Positions 4,935 through 39,497 of a stretch of 64,000 nucleotides of DNA are shown piece after piece. The notes beneath the pieces were generated by a model, which saw only the letters and a list, made by a program, of their open reading frames with translations, was not told the DNA's origin and did no database searches. Numbering within the stretch: position 1 is the first letter of the stretch; each line of letters opens with the position of its first letter. The stretch lies in NCBI RefSeq assembly GCF_038432375.1, contig NZ_JBCAUS010000002.1, positions 870,282 to 934,281 of the forward strand, read 5' to 3'. The DNA is from Methanococcoides sp. LMO-2 (GTDB lineage: Archaea; Halobacteriota; Methanosarcinia; Methanosarcinales; Methanosarcinaceae). Position numbers and translations under genes: made by a program.

Positions 4935-5022
4935 TGGTGCGGGAGGTGTGATTCGAACACACGAACTCCTACGAGACTAGGCCCTCAACCTAGCGCCTTT
5001 GGCCTGGCTGGGCAACCCCCGC
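4935..5022 (-). tRNA. tRNA-Leu (GAG), copy 3 in transcription order
   Basis: The minus strand folds as a class II tRNA: acceptor GCGGGGG/CTCCCGC, anticodon stem CTAGG/CCTAG with loop TTGAGGG giving anticodon GAG, a long variable arm, T arm GTGTG-TTCGAAT-CACAC, discriminator A and an encoded CCA. It reads CUC/CUU leucine codons. It is identical to the other two copies and is last in the array behind rpoD. Confidence 0.95.
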
Positions 5023-5277
5023 AAAGTGGATGTTGTTGATTTATCGAGTTACCGTCCTGAAAGATCTCAGGACCGTGTTGTTTCGGAATTGACCGAAATT
5101 AGTTTGGTGCGGGAGGTGTGATTCGAACACACGAACTCCTACGAGACTAGGCCCTCAACCTAGCGCCTTTGGCCTGGCTGGGCAACCCCCGCAAAGTGGA
5201 TGTTGTTGATTTATCGAGTTACCGTCCTGAAAGATCTCAGGACCGTGTTGTTTCGGAATTGACCGAAAGTGGTTTGG
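4938..5277. repeat. 170-bp tandem duplication unit (tRNA-Leu plus spacer)
   Basis: Two consecutive 170-bp units, each tRNA plus an 82-base spacer, differ only at the last few spacer bases (TTAGTTT versus GTGGTTT); a third tRNA follows without the same spacer. Each spacer carries two potential hairpins, GTCCTGA/TCAGGAC and TTCGG/CCGAA. The pattern indicates recent tandem triplication or ongoing homogenisation. Confidence 0.9.
5105..5192 (-). tRNA. tRNA-Leu (GAG), copy 2
   Basis: Same sequence and cloverleaf as the copy at 4935-5022, exactly 170 bp away, with encoded CCA. Spacers on either side are nearly identical. Confidence 0.95.
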
Positions 5278-5362
5278 TGCGGGAGGTGTGATTCGAACAC
5301 ACGAACTCCTACGAGACTAGGCCCTCAACCTAGCGCCTTTGGCCTGGCTGGGCAACCCCCGC
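5275..5362 (-). tRNA. tRNA-Leu (GAG), copy 1, next to rpoD
   Basis: Same sequence as the other two copies, with encoded CCA. It begins 53 bases past the rpoD stop codon on the same strand and could be processed from the ribosomal-protein transcript. Confidence 0.95.
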
Positions 5363-5415: not shown

Positions 5416-6219
5416 TTACAGTGTGCTCAGGATGTTTTGCATCTCAGAGGCTTTTCCTTTAATCGTATTCACTGCATTTAAGATTAACTGTTGAGCAGTG
5501 TATGAACCATCGGATTCCATAGTGAAAATGAAAGATTTTTCATCTGCACCAACGGTAATGGCATCTATATCGCATGAATCCTGGCATAATCTGCACAATG
5601 AACACCTGAGAAGGTCCTCTTTGGCGACCTCAGCAGATTCCTCACCGAGCTGAATTATGTTCCTTGGACATGCATTGACGCATATGCCGCACCTGTCGCA
5701 TCCTTCAATGGTAATAACAGGCATGTTCTTGTAGCCACAGGCAACGCCTGCCTGCCACTTTGCATGCTCATTACCATAGCCCATGTGTGCAATTGCTTCA
5801 AGAACGACCTTCTGGCCGGTCCTTAGATCAATTATAGGGATGGTCTTGTCTGCTGGCTGTACATTTGGATCAGATGAGACGATGTCACCGGAATGAACGA
5901 TGACCTGCTCCTCTTCACCTGCTTCAGCGCTGAGAGTCAAGGAAACAGTACATGCAGGACAGCCAGCACCTTCACAGGTACACTTATCCTGCGGCACGAA
6001 GTCCTCAAGACTGGATGTGAGGGGGATCAGACCCAACCTCAATGCCAGCTGTTCGTCATACAGAACAGAAGTATTATTATAGATATTCACGTCATCGATC
6101 GCTAGCGTAGGTACATCTGCGAGCATAGCCCTGCGGACACCATTTGCAAAAGCTGCGGTTGTGCCGGATAAAATGAACTTTGCTGATCTATCGGATAACT
6201 CAAGTATATCTATTTCCAT
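5416..6219 (-). CDS. rpoD: DNA-directed RNA polymerase subunit D (Rpo3) with two Fe-S clusters
   Basis: Archaeal homologue of bacterial alpha and eukaryotic Rpb3, needed for RNA polymerase assembly. The 267-residue protein has the alpha-like dimerisation domain split by an inserted ferredoxin-like domain. Two complete four-cysteine motifs are visible, C174-C177-C180-C184 and C206-C209-C212-C216, consistent with two [4Fe-4S] clusters as known for Methanosarcina D subunits. An additional cysteine group lies at C80, C82, C87 and C90. It follows rps11 by 23 bases and closes the protein-coding part of the alpha-type operon; rpl18e, rpl13, rps9 and rpoN, which follow rpoD in many archaea, are not here. 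Confidence 0.95.
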   Translation of the reverse strand: MEIDILELSDRSAKFILSGTTAAFANGVRRAMLADVPTLAIDDVNIYNNTSVLYDEQLALRLGLIPLTSSLEDFVPQDKCTCEGAGCPACTVSLTLSAEAGEEEQVIVHSGDIVSSDPNVQPADKTIPIIDLRTGQKVVLEAIAHMGYGNEHAKWQAGVACGYKNMPVITIEGCDRCGICVNACPRNIIQLGEESAEVAKEDLLRCSLCRLCQDSCDIDAITVGADEKSFIFTMESDGSYTAQQLILNAVNTIKGKASEMQNILSTL

Positions 6220-6242
6220 TGGAAAACCTCTGTTCTTTGTGA

Positions 6243-6623
6243 TTATACACGCCTTCCGCCTTTTGGACGAGTTCCATCGTGTGGTACTGGTGTAACGTCT
6301 TCGATCCTACCGATCCTGACGCCTGCCCTTGCGAATGCCCTGATCGCAGCCTGTGCGCCTGGACCCGGACTCCTCTGCTTGTTTCCTCCAGGTGCTCTGA
6401 CCTTGATGTGAACACCCTCGATACCCTTGTCTTTGAGGGTATCTGCAAGCTGGCTTGCCATCTGCATAGCAGTATATGGGGAACTTTCATCCCTTGCTGC
6501 CTTTACAACCATTCCACCAGAGGATTTTGCGATGGTCTCTGCACCAGTGAGATCTGTCACGGTGATGATCGTGTTGTTAAATGAACATTTGATGTGTGCA
6601 ACACCCCAGATTCCGTTTGCCAT
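6243..6623 (-). CDS. rps11: 30S ribosomal protein S11 (uS11)
   Basis: The 126-residue protein has the normal archaeal length. It starts [14 protein letters not shown] after a short lead and ends in the basic segment [10 protein letters not shown], both hallmarks of uS11, which lines the platform of the small subunit near the E site. It lies 13 bases after rps4 and 23 before rpoD, in the standard S13-S4-S11-RpoD order. An AGGAG-type ribosome-binding site precedes the ATG. Confidence 0.97.
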
Positions 6624-6636
6624 ATTTTACTCCTCC

Positions 6637-7191
6637 TTATTCCTCTACGATTGATGATGCGATCTGTGCAGGTCTTTCCGGGTGAGCTTCCCTGGAAATT
6701 GGAGACTTACCGTAGTAGTCGATTGCCATTTCCTGCTCCTTTGTGACCATCATACCAGGAACTGTTACCCTCTTTCCATCGATAGCGATGTGACCGTGGG
6801 TAATGAACTGCCTTGCCTGACGTGCAGTGCGGGCAAATCCAAGCCTGTGGACCTGTGTCTGAAGCCTGCGCTCAAGGATTGCTTCGGTCTGGAGACCAAG
6901 AATATCATCAATGTTAGAGTCTGATTTCAGAATTGAGAACCTGATCAGTTTTGCAAGGATCTGGTCTGCTTCTGTCTTTGCATGACCTGTAAGTTCGGAC
7001 TCTGCGGATTCAGCAAGGAGACGCCTTGCGTCTGCCCTGAACCTTCTCAGTACACTGTGAGATTTCCAGAGTTCCTTCTTGTTACGGAGACCATACTTTT
7101 TAACGAGCTCAACCTCAGTAGCCATCCTGGCAGCTTGCCAGGGGTGCTTTGGTGTATCATAAGATTTTGTACTTTTACCAGGATATACCAT
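6637..7191 (-). CDS. rps4: 30S ribosomal protein S4 (uS4)
   Basis: The 184-residue protein contains the S4 RNA-binding fold in its second half, [19 protein letters not shown], where the helix contacts 16S rRNA during early assembly. The C-terminus is acidic and disordered-looking. It lies between rps13 (12 bases upstream) and rps11 (13 bases downstream), so translation is probably coupled. Confidence 0.97.
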
Positions 7192-7203
7192 ATTGCATCA
7201 CCT

Positions 7204-7650
7204 TCATTTCTTCTTCCTTACACCAATGGTGCTACCACGTCTTCCTGTGGACTTGGTTCTCTGTCCTCTGACCTTGAGACCTCTCTCATGTCTGAGACCA
7301 CGGTATGCACGTGATTTCTTGAGGTCGTTAAGATCCTCTTTCAGGGTCATGATAATATCCTGACCAAGAAGGTGTTTGCTGTCACCAGATATTGGGTCGC
7401 GCTGCCTGTTGAGCATCCATATAGGAAGGTTCTGCTCGAACTGTGCAATTGCAGAATCAAGTTTTGCGATGTCCTCATCAGGGAGGTAACCGATCACTGC
7501 GTCCGGATCAACGCCGGTACTGTCTACTATAACACGAGAGGTTCTTAATCCGATACCACGGATACCGGTCAATGCGTACTTTACCCGCTGGCTTCCCTGC
7601 AGGTCAGTATTCATTATACGAACCAGATGTCTAATTTCTTCGTCTGCCAT
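7204..7650 (-). CDS. rps13: 30S ribosomal protein S13 (uS13)
   Basis: This 148-residue protein has the helix-two-turns-helix N-terminal domain (about 10-60, including [12 protein letters not shown]) and the basic C-terminal tail ending [11 protein letters not shown] that reaches tRNAs at the A and P sites. It is the first gene of the S13-S4-S11-RpoD operon. The start follows a strong AAGGAGG site. A leader hairpin at 7690-7709 precedes it. Confidence 0.97.
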
Positions 7651-13640: not shown

Positions 13641-13664
13641 AGAGGGACAAAGATCAGTCCCTCT
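13641..13664. terminator. Hairpin enclosing the cytochrome gene stop codon
   Basis: AGAGGGAC/GTCCCTCT with an eight-base loop; the minus-strand stop codon of the cytochrome (13654-13656) is in the loop. Followed by T-rich sequence on the plus strand (CTTTACT) and by TTTTTTTAAAAT on the minus strand, so it may act in both directions between convergent genes. Confidence 0.65.
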
Positions 13665-14829
13665 TTACTAAAATTGCAAGCGCTGCAAAGATCACTACTA
13701 CGACCGGAGCGCCGATCGCAGGGATCTTGTCAGCAGGTTCATCGGAATCTGAATCGCCTTCGATCACTAAATTGAAGAATTCTTCTGCCATGTCAAGATC
13801 GGACTCTGCACGTACCATATTATGGATACCAAGGCTGCCATCATTCCCAACTTCTGTAAGATAGAAAAGTCCGTTGTTATAGTTGGCAAGCTGTGTTTCA
13901 TAGGCATCTGTTCCATTGAAGCTTTCAAGAGCAACGTTTGCCCCTTCCTTCAACGTGTTAAGGTCAGATATCCTTTGGGATATAGGTTCCTGCTTTTCTT
14001 CGATCAATGATGCTAATTCGTCCTGATGGCACATATAACAGCCATTGGAAGAATCCGGATCTGAAAGGGCCACTACATCAAAATCGAAATTATGACCTGT
14101 TGTCATTCCGCCATCTGATGGTACCATTGACATGTGGCAATCAACACAGCCCAATTCAGGGTGAGTCCCATCCTCATATATTGATGTGCTGACCATTTCC
14201 CACTGCGCATGCCTTACAACATCAACAGTTCCGTCTGCTACAACACCTTCTGTGTTATGACAATTAGAACAGAGAAGCGTACTATCCTCAACCCTCAAAG
14301 AACCCTCATGAGGATCATGACAGGCAACACAAGCTATCGACCATTCGGTCACTTCAATGTCATGGGCAGCTTCCTCGTTCAGCATATACGTTTCCGGTTC
14401 CTCAAGATTCAATATCGCACCATCTGTGCTCTTACATACAACACAGGAAACATCCGAATGCAGCACATAGGGCTCTGCGATCTCAGTTGGTTCGGAGTGG
14501 CTTGCCATTACTTCCATATCGAAATCAGCTCCTCCAAACTCGTTCCACTCAGCAAAGATGGCAGCGTGACAATCGGCACACACCTCAGAAGACAGATCTG
14601 CAGATGGGACTGAAGCAGAAGGTTCCGCAATATGACCTTCAAAATCAACATCTGCAGGAGTATGGCATATTCCACAATCGGCAATTCCATGAGCCGAAGA
14701 ACTCCACTGATCATATGATTCCTGATGACAGTCCGCACAATCCTCAAAATCTGCCGCTATACACACAGTTGCAAATAAAATTAAAACCGTTGAAACTAAC
14801 AATATTGTTTTTGTTATGTCCCCCAACAT
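13654..14829 (-). CDS. Membrane-anchored octahaem cytochrome c, NrfA/ONR-like
   Basis: The protein (about 391 residues from the ATG at 14829; 14871 gives 405) has a signal peptide ending near CIAAD and eight haem motifs. Three CXXCH come first (31-35, 52-56, 84-88), then CVVCK (129-133), then four CXXCH (167-171, 187-191, 228-232, 264-268). A CXXCK fourth haem after three N-terminal haems is the order in octahaem nitrite reductase, and the last five match pentahaem NrfA, including the CVDCHM block with a nearby TTGHN and a C-terminal helical domain with GIHN. His207 aligns with the NrfA active-site histidine, but the Tyr after the third NrfA haem is missing. It ends in an acidic linker, PAIGAP, a membrane helix and KRD, like archaeal cell-surface anchors. 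Nitrite reduction or extracellular electron transfer are both possible. Confidence 0.85.
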   Translation of the reverse strand: MLGDITKTILLVSTVLILFATVCIAADFEDCADCHQESYDQWSSSAHGIADCGICHTPADVDFEGHIAEPSASVPSADLSSEVCADCHAAIFAEWNEFGGADFDMEVMASHSEPTEIAEPYVLHSDVSCVVCKSTDGAILNLEEPETYMLNEEAAHDIEVTEWSIACVACHDPHEGSLRVEDSTLLCSNCHNTEGVVADGTVDVVRHAQWEMVSTSIYEDGTHPELGCVDCHMSMVPSDGGMTTGHNFDFDVVALSDPDSSNGCYMCHQDELASLIEEKQEPISQRISDLNTLKEGANVALESFNGTDAYETQLANYNNGLFYLTEVGNDGSLGIHNMVRAESDLDMAEEFFNLVIEGDSDSDEPADKIPAIGAPVVVVIFAALAILVKRD

Positions 14830-14897
14830 ACCTATCACATAAGATAATGTGGGTTTTCGGGATAAATACATTTCCGAACAAATTTAGAAGTAAAAGG

Positions 14898-36525: not shown

Positions 36526-37767
36526 TCAGTCATCCAGATCAATTCCAAGTGCTTCTGCTGTAAGGACGATGACATCCTCAACAACAAGCTCATCTGCACC
36601 AAGGGAGTCTCTTCCGTCAGAAAGGTTCCTTCTACAGAATGGGCATGCACTTGAGAGAATATCAGGGTTCTTTGCAAGAGCATCCTGGACACGTGTCTCA
36701 GCGACCTTGAGAGCAAGGTCTGGAATACCTGCCTTTACACCACCGCCAGCTCCACAGCAGCGCTGGTTCTCTTTGATACGGTCCATCTCTTTCAGGTTGA
36801 GACCTGGAATAGAGTTAAGAACACTCCTTGGAGGCTGGAAAACACCAACGTGACGACCAAGGTGGCATGGATCGTGGTATGTTACAGTAAGGTTGTCAAA
36901 TGGTTTTTCCCATTCAATCTTTCCTTCTTTGATAAGTCCCTCAAGGAACTCTGTGATATGAACAACCTTGAACGGAAGCTCTTCACCGAGAAGCCTTGGC
37001 CAGTCGACAAGTGAAGCCCTGAAGCATCCTGCACATGCATAGACAACTGTCTTTGCACCCTTTGCAACGATACCATCAACATTGCTTCTTGCAGCCTTAC
37101 GTGCAATGTCCTCGATCTCATACTGACCGGTCCTGACAAGTGCTGAACAGCAGCAGCATTCATCTTCACCAAGCATTGTGAACTCGATTCCAAGCTTGTT
37201 GAGAACACGTGCGGTAGCTAATGCAAGTTTTGCTTCCCTGAGCTCTGCAGTACATCCTCCGAAGTAGAGGATCTCTGCCTTATCAGCGATCTTGATATCT
37301 TCAGTGATCCAGTTGAGCCTGTCCTTGTTGTCAGCCATGTATGGGTTCATGTACTCACCAATGAGCTTGACGAACATGCTCTGCTTACCGAATGGACCGT
37401 TTCCACGTTTTACAAGGTTTGCACGCATGGATTCCCAGAGTTCGACGGTGTTGATACCGACCTCACAGACAGTTGCACACATTGCACAGGTAGTACATCC
37501 ATAGACATCATCCTTGAACTGCTCGATCTCTTCCTCAGGAATTGCCTTTGGACCGAAAAGCCTGGCACGAAGACCGTAGGACTTGTCCATGAACTTTTTC
37601 CACCTGAGGATCTTATCCCTTGGTGCAAGTCCAGGATCTTTTTCGGAAGCGTCATAGGTTGGACACCAGTTGACACATTCACCACAGCGTACACAGGCAT
37701 CAAGCTCCATGAGCTGGACAGCAGTAAAGTTATTTGTATTAATTGAAGGTTCGCCTTTCATGATCAC
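36526..37767 (-). CDS. hdrD: Heterodisulfide reductase subunit D, membrane-bound type
   Basis: HdrD reduces CoM-S-S-CoB to the free thiols at the end of methanogenesis. The 413-residue protein has two N-terminal [4Fe-4S] motifs ([12 protein letters not shown] near 25 and [11 protein letters not shown] near 91) and two CCG domains: one with ECCCC and CAGC (about 200-250) and one with [12 protein letters not shown] and CPFC (about 300-390), which hold the noncubane active-site clusters. It overlaps hdrE by 4 bases. Confidence 0.97.
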
Positions 37768-38573
37768 TCGCCTCCCTTGTTAGCAAGCAGTGTAAGTGGT
37801 CCTGCGATCATATGCATGTACTTGCTGAATGGGATATATGCGATACAGAAGAACAATGAGATCACAACGTGGAACAGTGCTGCAGGTGGTGCAAGATCAG
37901 ACTGCATTCCGAAGCCCCAGAAATTACCGTTCCTTAGACCATCAGCAACGAAACCTGTAATAACGATTATAGTAAGTCCGACAAGAAGTACGGAATCAAA
38001 AGCGATTGTACTTTCACGAGCCTTCTTAAGGAAAAGTCTCCTGAAAATTGCAACGATGATACCGAACAACAGAATGTAACTGAAAACATCGTTAGGGAAA
38101 CTGAGCATCTCTCTGAAAACCTCAGGCGAGATTATGTGAATTCCTACCATGTGGATGATTTCCACAACGAACATGGCAACTGACATGATACAAAGAGCGA
38201 TCCATCCACCAAAGATGGCGATATGCATGATCCATCTTCCAGGACTGCGCCTTAATGCACGTCTCTGAAGAAGAGCATCAAGAATAAGTGTTACAAAGAT
38301 ATTCTGACCATGTCCATGCCCTTTTGCACTCATTTGATAGGCTAACGCTTTAGGGAATGTGAAAATGCTTCCTTTTGGCTTAAGACTGTAGCCTTCGGAA
38401 CCCATGCCCCATTTTTTGAGATTGATATACATACCAAGCATGAAGATCGCTATTGATATGGTGGCCATAATCATAACCGCTGCAAATGTGATCTTCATAG
38501 ACTCAGTAAGCATCCCGAAACTGTTTGCGATTTCTGCAGTCTCAGAAAGTCCACTGAAATATTCCATACTCAT
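37764..38573 (-). CDS. hdrE: Heterodisulfide reductase subunit E, cytochrome b
   Basis: The 269-residue membrane protein has five hydrophobic segments and histidines in helices ([25 protein letters not shown]) that can bind two b haems. It passes electrons from methanophenazine to HdrD, coupled to proton movement. It precedes hdrD with overlapping stop and start codons. A TATA element, TATTTAAATA at 38673-38682, would give a leader of about 75 nt. Confidence 0.95.
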
Positions 38574-38668
38574 AAATTATTCTCCTGATATTGCTACGAA
38601 TCAGTATTGATTACATCTTTCTAAAAATTATCATGATACCGAATACGGTTTGTGTATTGGTGGAATCT

Positions 38669-38684
38669 ATTGTATTTAAATATT
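38669..38684 (-). promoter_or_regulatory. TATA box of hdrED
   Basis: The minus strand reads GAAAATATTTAAATACAA. Its core TATTTAAATA (38673-38682) sits about 100 bases before the hdrE start, the only good TATA element in the gap. Confidence 0.55.
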
Positions 38685-38825
38685 TTCATTATCGATGATC
38701 CACCGGGAGGGAGAAATTAATTAAAAAACATTCTATAGAGATCCAATTCAAGGAGATCACAGAAAACATGAAAATCAATATAATAGGAGCTTAAACAAGA
38801 AAGTACAGGAAAAAGCATTAAAAAA

Positions 38826-39497
38826 TCATAAAACACCGATTTCTCTTTTGAAATTATCAAGACCCATATCATCAATAAGCCTGCCAAGACGATACCGTTT
38901 AGCATACCCTTTATAGGTGTCAACGATCTTCTCAACGAGATCAAGAACCTCACTTTCAGTCAGGCCTTCAGCGATAACATCCCCAAGCCTTGGCCTTATA
39001 CCTGCATTTCCCCCCACCATCAAAGTAAAACCTCTGGGAGTTCCCATTATGCCGATATCCTTTACTGCTGGTTCGGAACAGGAGTTCATACAACCACTGA
39101 CAGCTATCTTGAACTTTGATGGAAGCTCCATACCATGATATTTATTATCAATAATCAATCCAAGGGAAACAGCATCCTGTTGTGCCCTTTTACAGAAGCT
39201 CGTGCCTGGACAGACCTTTATACTGCGAATGCATTTGCCGATGGCTGCTGCCGGCTTCATACCAAGGTCCAGCCATGCATTGTCAATATCCTCTTCTTTT
39301 AAACCGACAATAGCAATACGTTGTGCGGATGTAAATTTAAGAGTATCAGCATCATACTTCCTGGCAACATCAACTATACACTGGAGTTCATCAGGAGTTA
39401 CAATGCCACCCGGAGTTTGTGGAACAATGGCATAGGTCTGCTTATCGCGCTGAAGTATAGCACATTTATCCAACAGATCCTTTGCCACCGATCCCAC
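38826..39497 (-). CDS. Small sirohaem sulfite/nitrite reductase-like protein
   Basis: The 223-residue protein has a ferredoxin-like nitrite/sulfite reductase domain (about 20-85) and the sirohaem-[4Fe-4S] binding pattern C-x5-C (CPGTSFC, about 96-102) followed by C-x3-C (CMNSC). It matches the low-molecular-weight single-domain enzymes of methanogens (assimilatory-type or Dsr-like proteins) that lack an extra ferredoxin domain. The physiological substrate is unproven: sulfite detoxification is likely. It follows the rubrerythrin gene by 21 bases. Confidence 0.9.
   Translation of the reverse strand: MGSVAKDLLDKCAILQRDKQTYAIVPQTPGGIVTPDELQCIVDVARKYDADTLKFTSAQRIAIVGLKEEDIDNAWLDLGMKPAAAIGKCIRSIKVCPGTSFCKRAQQDAVSLGLIIDNKYHGMELPSKFKIAVSGCMNSCSEPAVKDIGIMGTPRGFTLMVGGNAGIRPRLGDVIAEGLTESEVLDLVEKIVDTYKGYAKRYRLGRLIDDMGLDNFKREIGVL

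Follow-up and report, generated by a model that had tools for sequence, protein, structure and literature searches.

A surface-type octahaem cytochrome of Methanococcoides related to OcwA, with a haem motif order that probably arose by haem loss

Introduction

OcwA and OmhA, surface multihaem cytochromes of Gram-positive bacteria, have been tied experimentally to extracellular electron transfer (PMC6703420, PMC7829351). In OcwA of Thermincola potens (PDB 6i5b), haems 2 and 5 are open and a histidine pair lies over each of them (HH281/282 and HH380/381). Two haem losses, that of haem 2 and that of haem 5, were proposed by its authors for the origin of the octahaem enzymes (PMC6703420). Methanogenic archaea enter this picture through a tree of OmhA relatives, one cluster of which includes their 9- to 16-haem proteins (PMC7829351).

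Described here is an octahaem cytochrome encoded in a stretch of 64,000 nucleotides, the window, from the marine methanogen Methanococcoides sp. LMO-2 (NCBI RefSeq assembly GCF_038432375.1, contig NZ_JBCAUS010000002.1, positions 870,282 to 934,281 of the forward strand). The original prediction for this gene, made from its letters, was a protein like octahaem nitrite reductase (ONR) that may have turned into an electron conduit at the cell surface. Positions are those of the window, and residue numbers of the cytochrome count from the ATG at 14871.

Results

Gene and haem motifs

The cytochrome gene occupies 13654..14871 on the minus strand as an intact ORF of 405 amino acids. Starts at 14871 and at the alternative position 14829, which is an internal Met (residue 15), are both possible. 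The interval first proposed, 13654-14829, is the same ORF begun at that internal Met; the ORF itself reaches 14871. Within the 405 residues the predicted order of three CXXCH, one CXXCK and four CXXCH is confirmed. The motifs, all on the minus strand, are C45ADCH (residues 45-49; 14725..14739), C66GICH (14662..14676), C98ADCH (14566..14580), C143VVCK with Lys147 as the proximal ligand (14431..14445), C181VACH (14317..14331), C201SNCH (14257..14271), C242VDCH (14134..14148) and C278YMCH (14026..14040). In the numbering of the nine-haem relatives described below, motifs 2, 3 and 4 are haems 3, 4 and 5, the last being the equivalent of the NrfA catalytic haem. The haem 2 site of those relatives, missing here, falls between residues 61 and 66 (14674..14691, minus strand) according to alignments and tree.

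Of 20,000 random rearrangements of its residues, not one exceeded three haem motifs, compared with the eight present. Homologues within Methanococcoides are 57-86% identical, and the dN/dS of 0.13-0.15 within the genus denotes strong purifying selection. Conservation in the Methanococcoides genomes where it was found, together with this ratio, shows that the gene is real and functional.

Fold and nearest solved proteins

Pfam matches the cytochrome to Cytochrom_C552 (PF02335, 3e-10), plus several generic multihaem domains, and none of the NCBIfam equivalog cut-offs is reached. Against all PDB sequences a profile of the archaeal family ranks OcwA at the top (1.3e-26), followed by the S-layer undecahaem cytochrome of Carboxydothermus ferrireducens (6qvm, 1.1e-18) and, at lower ranks, by NrfA (3.3e-13), MccA (1.3e-11) and ONR (1.8e-5).

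The AlphaFold2 model (mean pLDDT 82, pTM 0.80) was run without haems; haem geometry and the vacancy over haem 4, the CXXCK haem of the window cytochrome, are deduced from sequence. The model includes the C-terminal three-helix bundle typical of the NrfA/OcwA fold (13759..14037, minus strand; pLDDT 90-99 over most of it). Its best Foldseek matches are ONR structures (E about 2e-8, TM-score 0.59 by query), then OcwA, 6qvm and NrfA, with the TM-score slightly higher to ONR than to OcwA. For the model of a nine-haem homologue (L049; pLDDT 76, its TAG read as Lys) the best match is OcwA, at 2e-8. Structure prediction, through the Foldseek ranking of ONR and the three-helix bundle, thus bears out the NrfA/ONR family fold at the superfamily level. 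As for the proposed ONR identity, motif order, family fold and the Lys-type haem stand, and descent and the residue signature are not supported. The profile values of OcwA and ONR (1.3e-26 vs 1.8e-5), the nine-haem relatives and the missing NrfA residues leave ONR identity in those two respects without support. The protein is probably an archaeal relative of OcwA and OmhA inside the NrfA superfamily.

Active-site residues and haem ligands

In an alignment to E. coli NrfA, Lys126 and His264 are matched by Lys147 and His221 (14209..14211, minus strand), and His221 also aligns with the second His of OcwA HH380/381. This is the catalytic-type histidine that had been noted as His207; it is kept, yet the same column (that of NrfA His264) reads His in 21, Tyr in 8 and Gly in 5 archaeal rows, so that Tyr or Gly stands in 13 of the 34. 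Arg106 of NrfA is replaced by Leu and Tyr216 by Glu, in keeping with the earlier remark that the NrfA tyrosine is absent. The calcium site is likewise unmatched (Glu215 to Thr, Tyr216 to Glu, Lys261 to Val, Gln263 to Arg). E. coli NrfA does share the spacing of 38 residues from CXXCK to the next haem that was put forward as a further resemblance (122 to 160 in NrfA). This spacing is nevertheless rejected as an NrfA mark, since it is 39 in close relatives.

The CXXCK column aligns with NrfA K126, and with CXXCH in the bacterial relatives and OcwA. Histidines outside the motifs that are invariant in the archaeal alignment number seven (H61, H80, H125, H188, H237, H260 and H350) and are candidate distal ligands, one per CXXCH haem, the pairing of histidine with haem being putative. 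Seven histidines for seven CXXCH haems leave none to spare, so the distal side of the CXXCK haem is probably open or weakly ligated, and this single Lys-ligated haem is probably five-coordinate. The HH motif that follows haem 4 in nine-haem relatives is deleted from the window cytochrome in the alignment. Retention of CXXCK by every Methanosarcinaceae protein in the main clade suggests that its haem has some role under selection.

Haem loss and family history

Homologues occur in 34 of the 186 genomes of the order. The genera bearing them, as read, are mainly Methanococcoides, Methanolobus, Methanohalophilus, a Methanohalobium-like genus and one further Methanosarcinaceae genus; a few archaea beyond these main genera also have homologues. 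Most of those outside Methanococcoides carry nine haems, the extra haem lying between motifs 1 and 2 of the window cytochrome. In bacterial relatives, from Chloroflexi, Verrucomicrobia and Ignavibacteria, the same arrangement of nine CXXCH haems is usual, and most have one His-rich motif after haem 4 (e.g. CGSCHNGPHHAMYEEW) and another before haem 8 (e.g. HHPQFEI). The two motifs line up with OcwA HH281/282 and HH380/381.

The trees contain no ONR sequence; in them the branch of E. coli NrfA (NC_000913) is very long and OcwA is a partial sequence assembled from printed alignments. The eight-haem proteins of Methanococcoides form one clade (support 100/100). Two eight-haem copies from Methanolobus, L021 and L027, are nested in a nine-haem clade (100/99 and 96/91) and retain the residues that flank the internal haem-2 deletion. 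Haem 2 undergoes four changes on the tree, comprising three losses in Methanosarcinaceae and one CXXCM variant, and the well-supported branches alone give at least two losses. Nine-haem ancestors probably gave rise to the eight-haem 'ONR order' by losing haem 2, on no fewer than two and probably on three occasions.

Other members vary the scaffold further. The CXXCM variant (L160, in genome G194 of another family of the phylum) reads CGHCM at haem 2, with both Cys kept and the proximal His changed to Met, and retains CXXCK at haem 5. One Methanococcoides protein (L014, genome G098) has regained a CXXCH between haems 1 and 3, which, read by eye, seems to be a second haem-1 unit produced by tandem duplication. 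In a clade of Methanolobus paralogues (L037, L118, L119, L120 and L122) the CXXCK haem is deleted at a dN/dS of 0.13, and since these paralogues are still conserved the family does not need that haem. CXXCK is confined to the archaeal clade, CXXCH standing in its place in the bacterial relatives, in OcwA and in the deep archaeal L121 and L156; the likeness to NrfA at this motif may therefore be convergent. Both of the losses proposed by the authors of OcwA occur here, haem 2 in the Methanococcoides and Methanolobus copies and haem 5 in the Methanolobus paralogues.

In-frame TAG codons in relatives

Homologues of seven species from two genera each have a single in-frame TAG. It falls between haems 2 and 3, on the same codon in all of them, and a Tyr codon always comes next. 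Three of the species belong to genus g5 (L033, L034, L035) and four to Methanolobus (L036/L123, L116/L048, L037/L124/L052 and L117, the last of which is broken further down). The TAG of L049, for example, is codon 58 of 5983-7281. Methanolobus copies still keep the TAG at a dS of about 1.4-2.3, which is saturated or nearly so. The dN/dS downstream of the TAG is 0.15-0.31, with dS in the g5 trio only 0.2-0.4, and PylD was found in every genome with a TAG homologue. From the retention of the TAG, the purifying selection downstream and the presence of PylD, pyrrolysine is predicted in a multihaem cytochrome, and some homologues appear to carry it. Six of the seven TAG species have Glu or Gly where the haem-2 HH motif would have its second His, and the non-TAG nine-haem proteins inspected keep HH at haem 2 (both read by eye). 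Pyrrolysine may thus serve the haem-2 pocket. The remaining members of the CXXCK-less Methanolobus clade have ATG at the TAG codon. The window cytochrome has no TAG, and the segment that bears it is absent.

In a 2021 review (PMC8211752) the pyrrolysine proteins named are limited to methylamine methyltransferases, some transposases and Thg1. Pyrrolysine in a multihaem cytochrome is listed in none of the reviews and prediction papers searched, a set that covers the subscription literature incompletely.

A broken copy in Methanohalophilus (L032 / L047) has a TAG at a Trp codon, different from the conserved TAG codon, plus a TGA. In the window, 226-1596 on the plus strand encodes an MtmB-family protein (PF05369, E 3e-159) in an uninterrupted frame, so that the amber codon found in Pyl-type monomethylamine methyltransferases is absent; the gene adjoins an Orc/Cdc6-like gene and a hydantoinase/oxoprolinase-like gene.

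Surface location, maturation and gene neighbourhood

Residues 1-40 (14752..14871, minus strand) read as a signal peptide or hydrophobic segment, with an aligned hydrophobic segment in homologues. At the other end the alignment puts the C-terminal anchor DKIPAIGAPVVVVIFAALAILVKRD (13657..13731, minus strand) at the same position as the PGF-CTERM of homologues, and its hydrophobic helix and basic tail agree with the membrane anchor foreseen for the protein. The PGF-CTERM model gives no match on the window cytochrome itself; homologue L050 scores above the curated cut-off and two other homologues score below threshold. Archaeosortase A (ArtA), CcmE and CcmC/CcmF-type proteins are encoded in the same genome. 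Judged by signal peptide, anchor, the PGF-CTERM of homologues and the genomic ArtA, the cytochrome looks to be anchored on the cell surface. At least one further multihaem protein is encoded in this genome (C2:310708-311292, L163); it carries nine CXXCH motifs and ends in a PGF-like anchor. A search of the genome with PF11783 (OTR/MmcA) gave no match and is uninformative, the controls being equally without a match.

In NrfA, CXXCK is reported to require a dedicated lyase (PMC9012536). All 14 of the Methanosarcinaceae genomes tested that carry the family, plus G194, encode two PF01578 proteins each, which would be CcmC and one CcmF; two genomes of the Methanolobus genus with no family match likewise encode two. 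No NrfE-type second haem lyase for CXXCK was found with PF01578 in the 15 family-bearing genomes. With only two such proteins in each, the task of serving CXXCK would fall to a single general CcmF.

The gene is monocistronic and is flanked by TruB, a short membrane protein, PfpI and a large peptidase. The order TruB, cytochrome, PfpI, peptidase is syntenic only within Methanococcoides, and the neighbours differ in other genera. At the loci in the genera examined there were no NrfH/NapC-like, multihaem-partner or nitrite-related neighbour genes. Elsewhere in the window, on the minus strand, are three tandem copies of tRNA-Leu (GAG) with 170-base spacing (4935-5362), and HdrD/TfrB-like and QmoC-like membrane electron-transfer genes (36526-39497), beside which lies a putative small sirohaem-type reductase.

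Discussion

Function of the cytochrome

The function that we favour, with rather better than even confidence, is that of a surface multihaem protein of the OcwA/OmhA type that retains one open haem and acts as an electron conduit or a terminal reductase. Kinship with OcwA and OmhA by sequence, the missing NrfA residues and the anchor all support the conduit role that had been guessed at. Electrons would be drawn from the membrane methanophenazine pool, directly or via another cytochrome, and would move from haem to haem until they reach an extracellular acceptor (Fe(III), humics or a partner cell), or would travel in the reverse direction. As the Lys-ligated haem is probably five-coordinate, it may slowly reduce nitrite or hydroxylamine, as OcwA does; without the active-site Arg, the Tyr and the calcium site of NrfA this is probably not the main job of the protein. 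Three points count against the conduit: this orphan gene adjoins no evident gene for a membrane electron donor, CXXCK is retained across the Methanosarcinaceae of the main clade, and the PGF-CTERM model does not match the window cytochrome itself.

Such turnover would be the main job if the protein were a genuine ammonia-forming nitrite or hydroxylamine reductase of the ONR/NrfA kind, serving detoxification at the surface with the CXXCK haem 4 as active site and His221 as proton donor. A CXXCK haem without a conserved distal His, the alignment of His221 with NrfA His264, the ONR structures at the head of the Foldseek ranking and the Cytochrom_C552 match all accord with an enzyme of this kind, and OcwA itself turns over nitrite at about 1 per min (PMC6703420). 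We nevertheless think it unlikely, given the absence of NrfA Arg106, Tyr216 and the calcium ligands, the Tyr or Gly in more than a third of the archaeal rows at the His221 position, the conserved Methanolobus paralogue that lacks the CXXCK haem and the want of nitrite-related genes nearby. The opposite case, a purely conductive wire with no substrate site, would have haem 4 six-coordinate in vivo, liganded by His221 or another side chain. Several relatives replace His221 with Tyr, another possible ligand, and the loss of haem 2 in some lineages and of haem 5 in others gives the impression that the family can do without open haems. However, the His aligned with His221 is not a ligand in NrfA, and the main clade strictly keeps CXXCK although an ordinary CXXCH would serve a wire; a pure wire is, in our judgement, improbable.

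The remaining alternatives concern origin and substrate. A bacterial ONR acquired by methanogens, of which the cytochrome would be a direct descendant and whose nine-haem relatives would have gained a haem, could explain the same motif order and CXXCK as well as the TM-score slightly above that to OcwA. Descent from ONR is disfavoured by the sequence ranking, which is far nearer OcwA than ONR, by the nine-haem state of the outgroups (OcwA, bacterial and other archaeal relatives) and by the nested haem losses in a tree without ONR, where the eight-haem Methanolobus copies with their deletion flanks kept sit inside a nine-haem clade; we hold it to be very unlikely. The NrfA superfamily also includes MccA (sulfite) and OTR (tetrathionate), and the profile matches MccA, so that some other small oxyanion or sulfur compound such as sulfite, tetrathionate or arsenate might be the substrate at haem 4. 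MccA and OTR, though, work at haem 2, which is lost here (PMC6703420, PMC11024163), and an enzyme of this sort is likewise very unlikely.

Returning to the OcwA/OmhA-type conduit or reductase, a broader proposal can be made for its family. The ONR pattern would have been reached independently, by loss of haem 2 and with CXXCK at haem 5, a Methanolobus paralogue would have lost its CXXCK haem instead, and pyrrolysine would stand beside haem 2 in seven species; taken as a whole, we consider this evenly balanced between true and false. If true, it would place a genetically encoded pyrrolysine in a haem protein. In a single archaeal family the nine-haem scaffold has shed haem 2 in some members and haem 5 in others, which bears on the origin of the octahaem enzymes of the nitrogen and sulfur cycles. 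An anchored and conserved protein of the OcwA type makes extracellular electron transfer directly testable in the methylotrophic Methanococcoides, Methanolobus and Methanohalophilus.

Comparison with known systems

NrfA resembles the window cytochrome over the last five haems, CXXCK first, in the equivalent of His264 and in the PF02335 match. The window cytochrome differs in its three extra N-terminal haems, and in lacking the EY after haem 3, the K-x-Q calcium site, Arg106 and the NrfH partner. ONR (TvNiR 2ot4/3f29; 8rv0) shares the order of three CXXCH, CXXCK and four CXXCH, and is the best Foldseek match. Identity to ONR is only about 15%, however, the active-site Arg, Tyr and calcium ligands are not kept, and the motif order of the window cytochrome probably derives from a nine-haem ancestor minus haem 2. 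MmcA and OTR of Methanosarcinales are, like it, multihaem cytochromes of methanogens, and MmcA is a known electron conduit (PMC11024163). MmcA is placed next to OTR, is encoded in the rnf operon and has no CXXCK described, and the Lys ligand of OTR is on haem 2 (PMC11024163), whereas the window family is a separate branch.

OmhA of Carboxydothermus ferrireducens (PDB 6qvm) belongs to the same superfamily by sequence and fold, but has 11 haems in about 680 amino acids, with CXXCK not reported (PMC7829351). OcwA is the best sequence match among solved structures. It shares with the window cytochrome the NrfA-superfamily fold with its C-terminal three-helix bundle (the bundle is described in PMC6703420), NrfA-like last five haems after a c554-like block, a His over the haem-5 pocket and a place at the cell surface, which for the window cytochrome is predicted from sequence. 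The two differ in that OcwA has nine haems, with haems 2 and 5 open and CXXCH at haem 5, whereas the window cytochrome is without haem 2 and its HH motif and has CXXCK at haem 5 and an archaeal C-terminal anchor.
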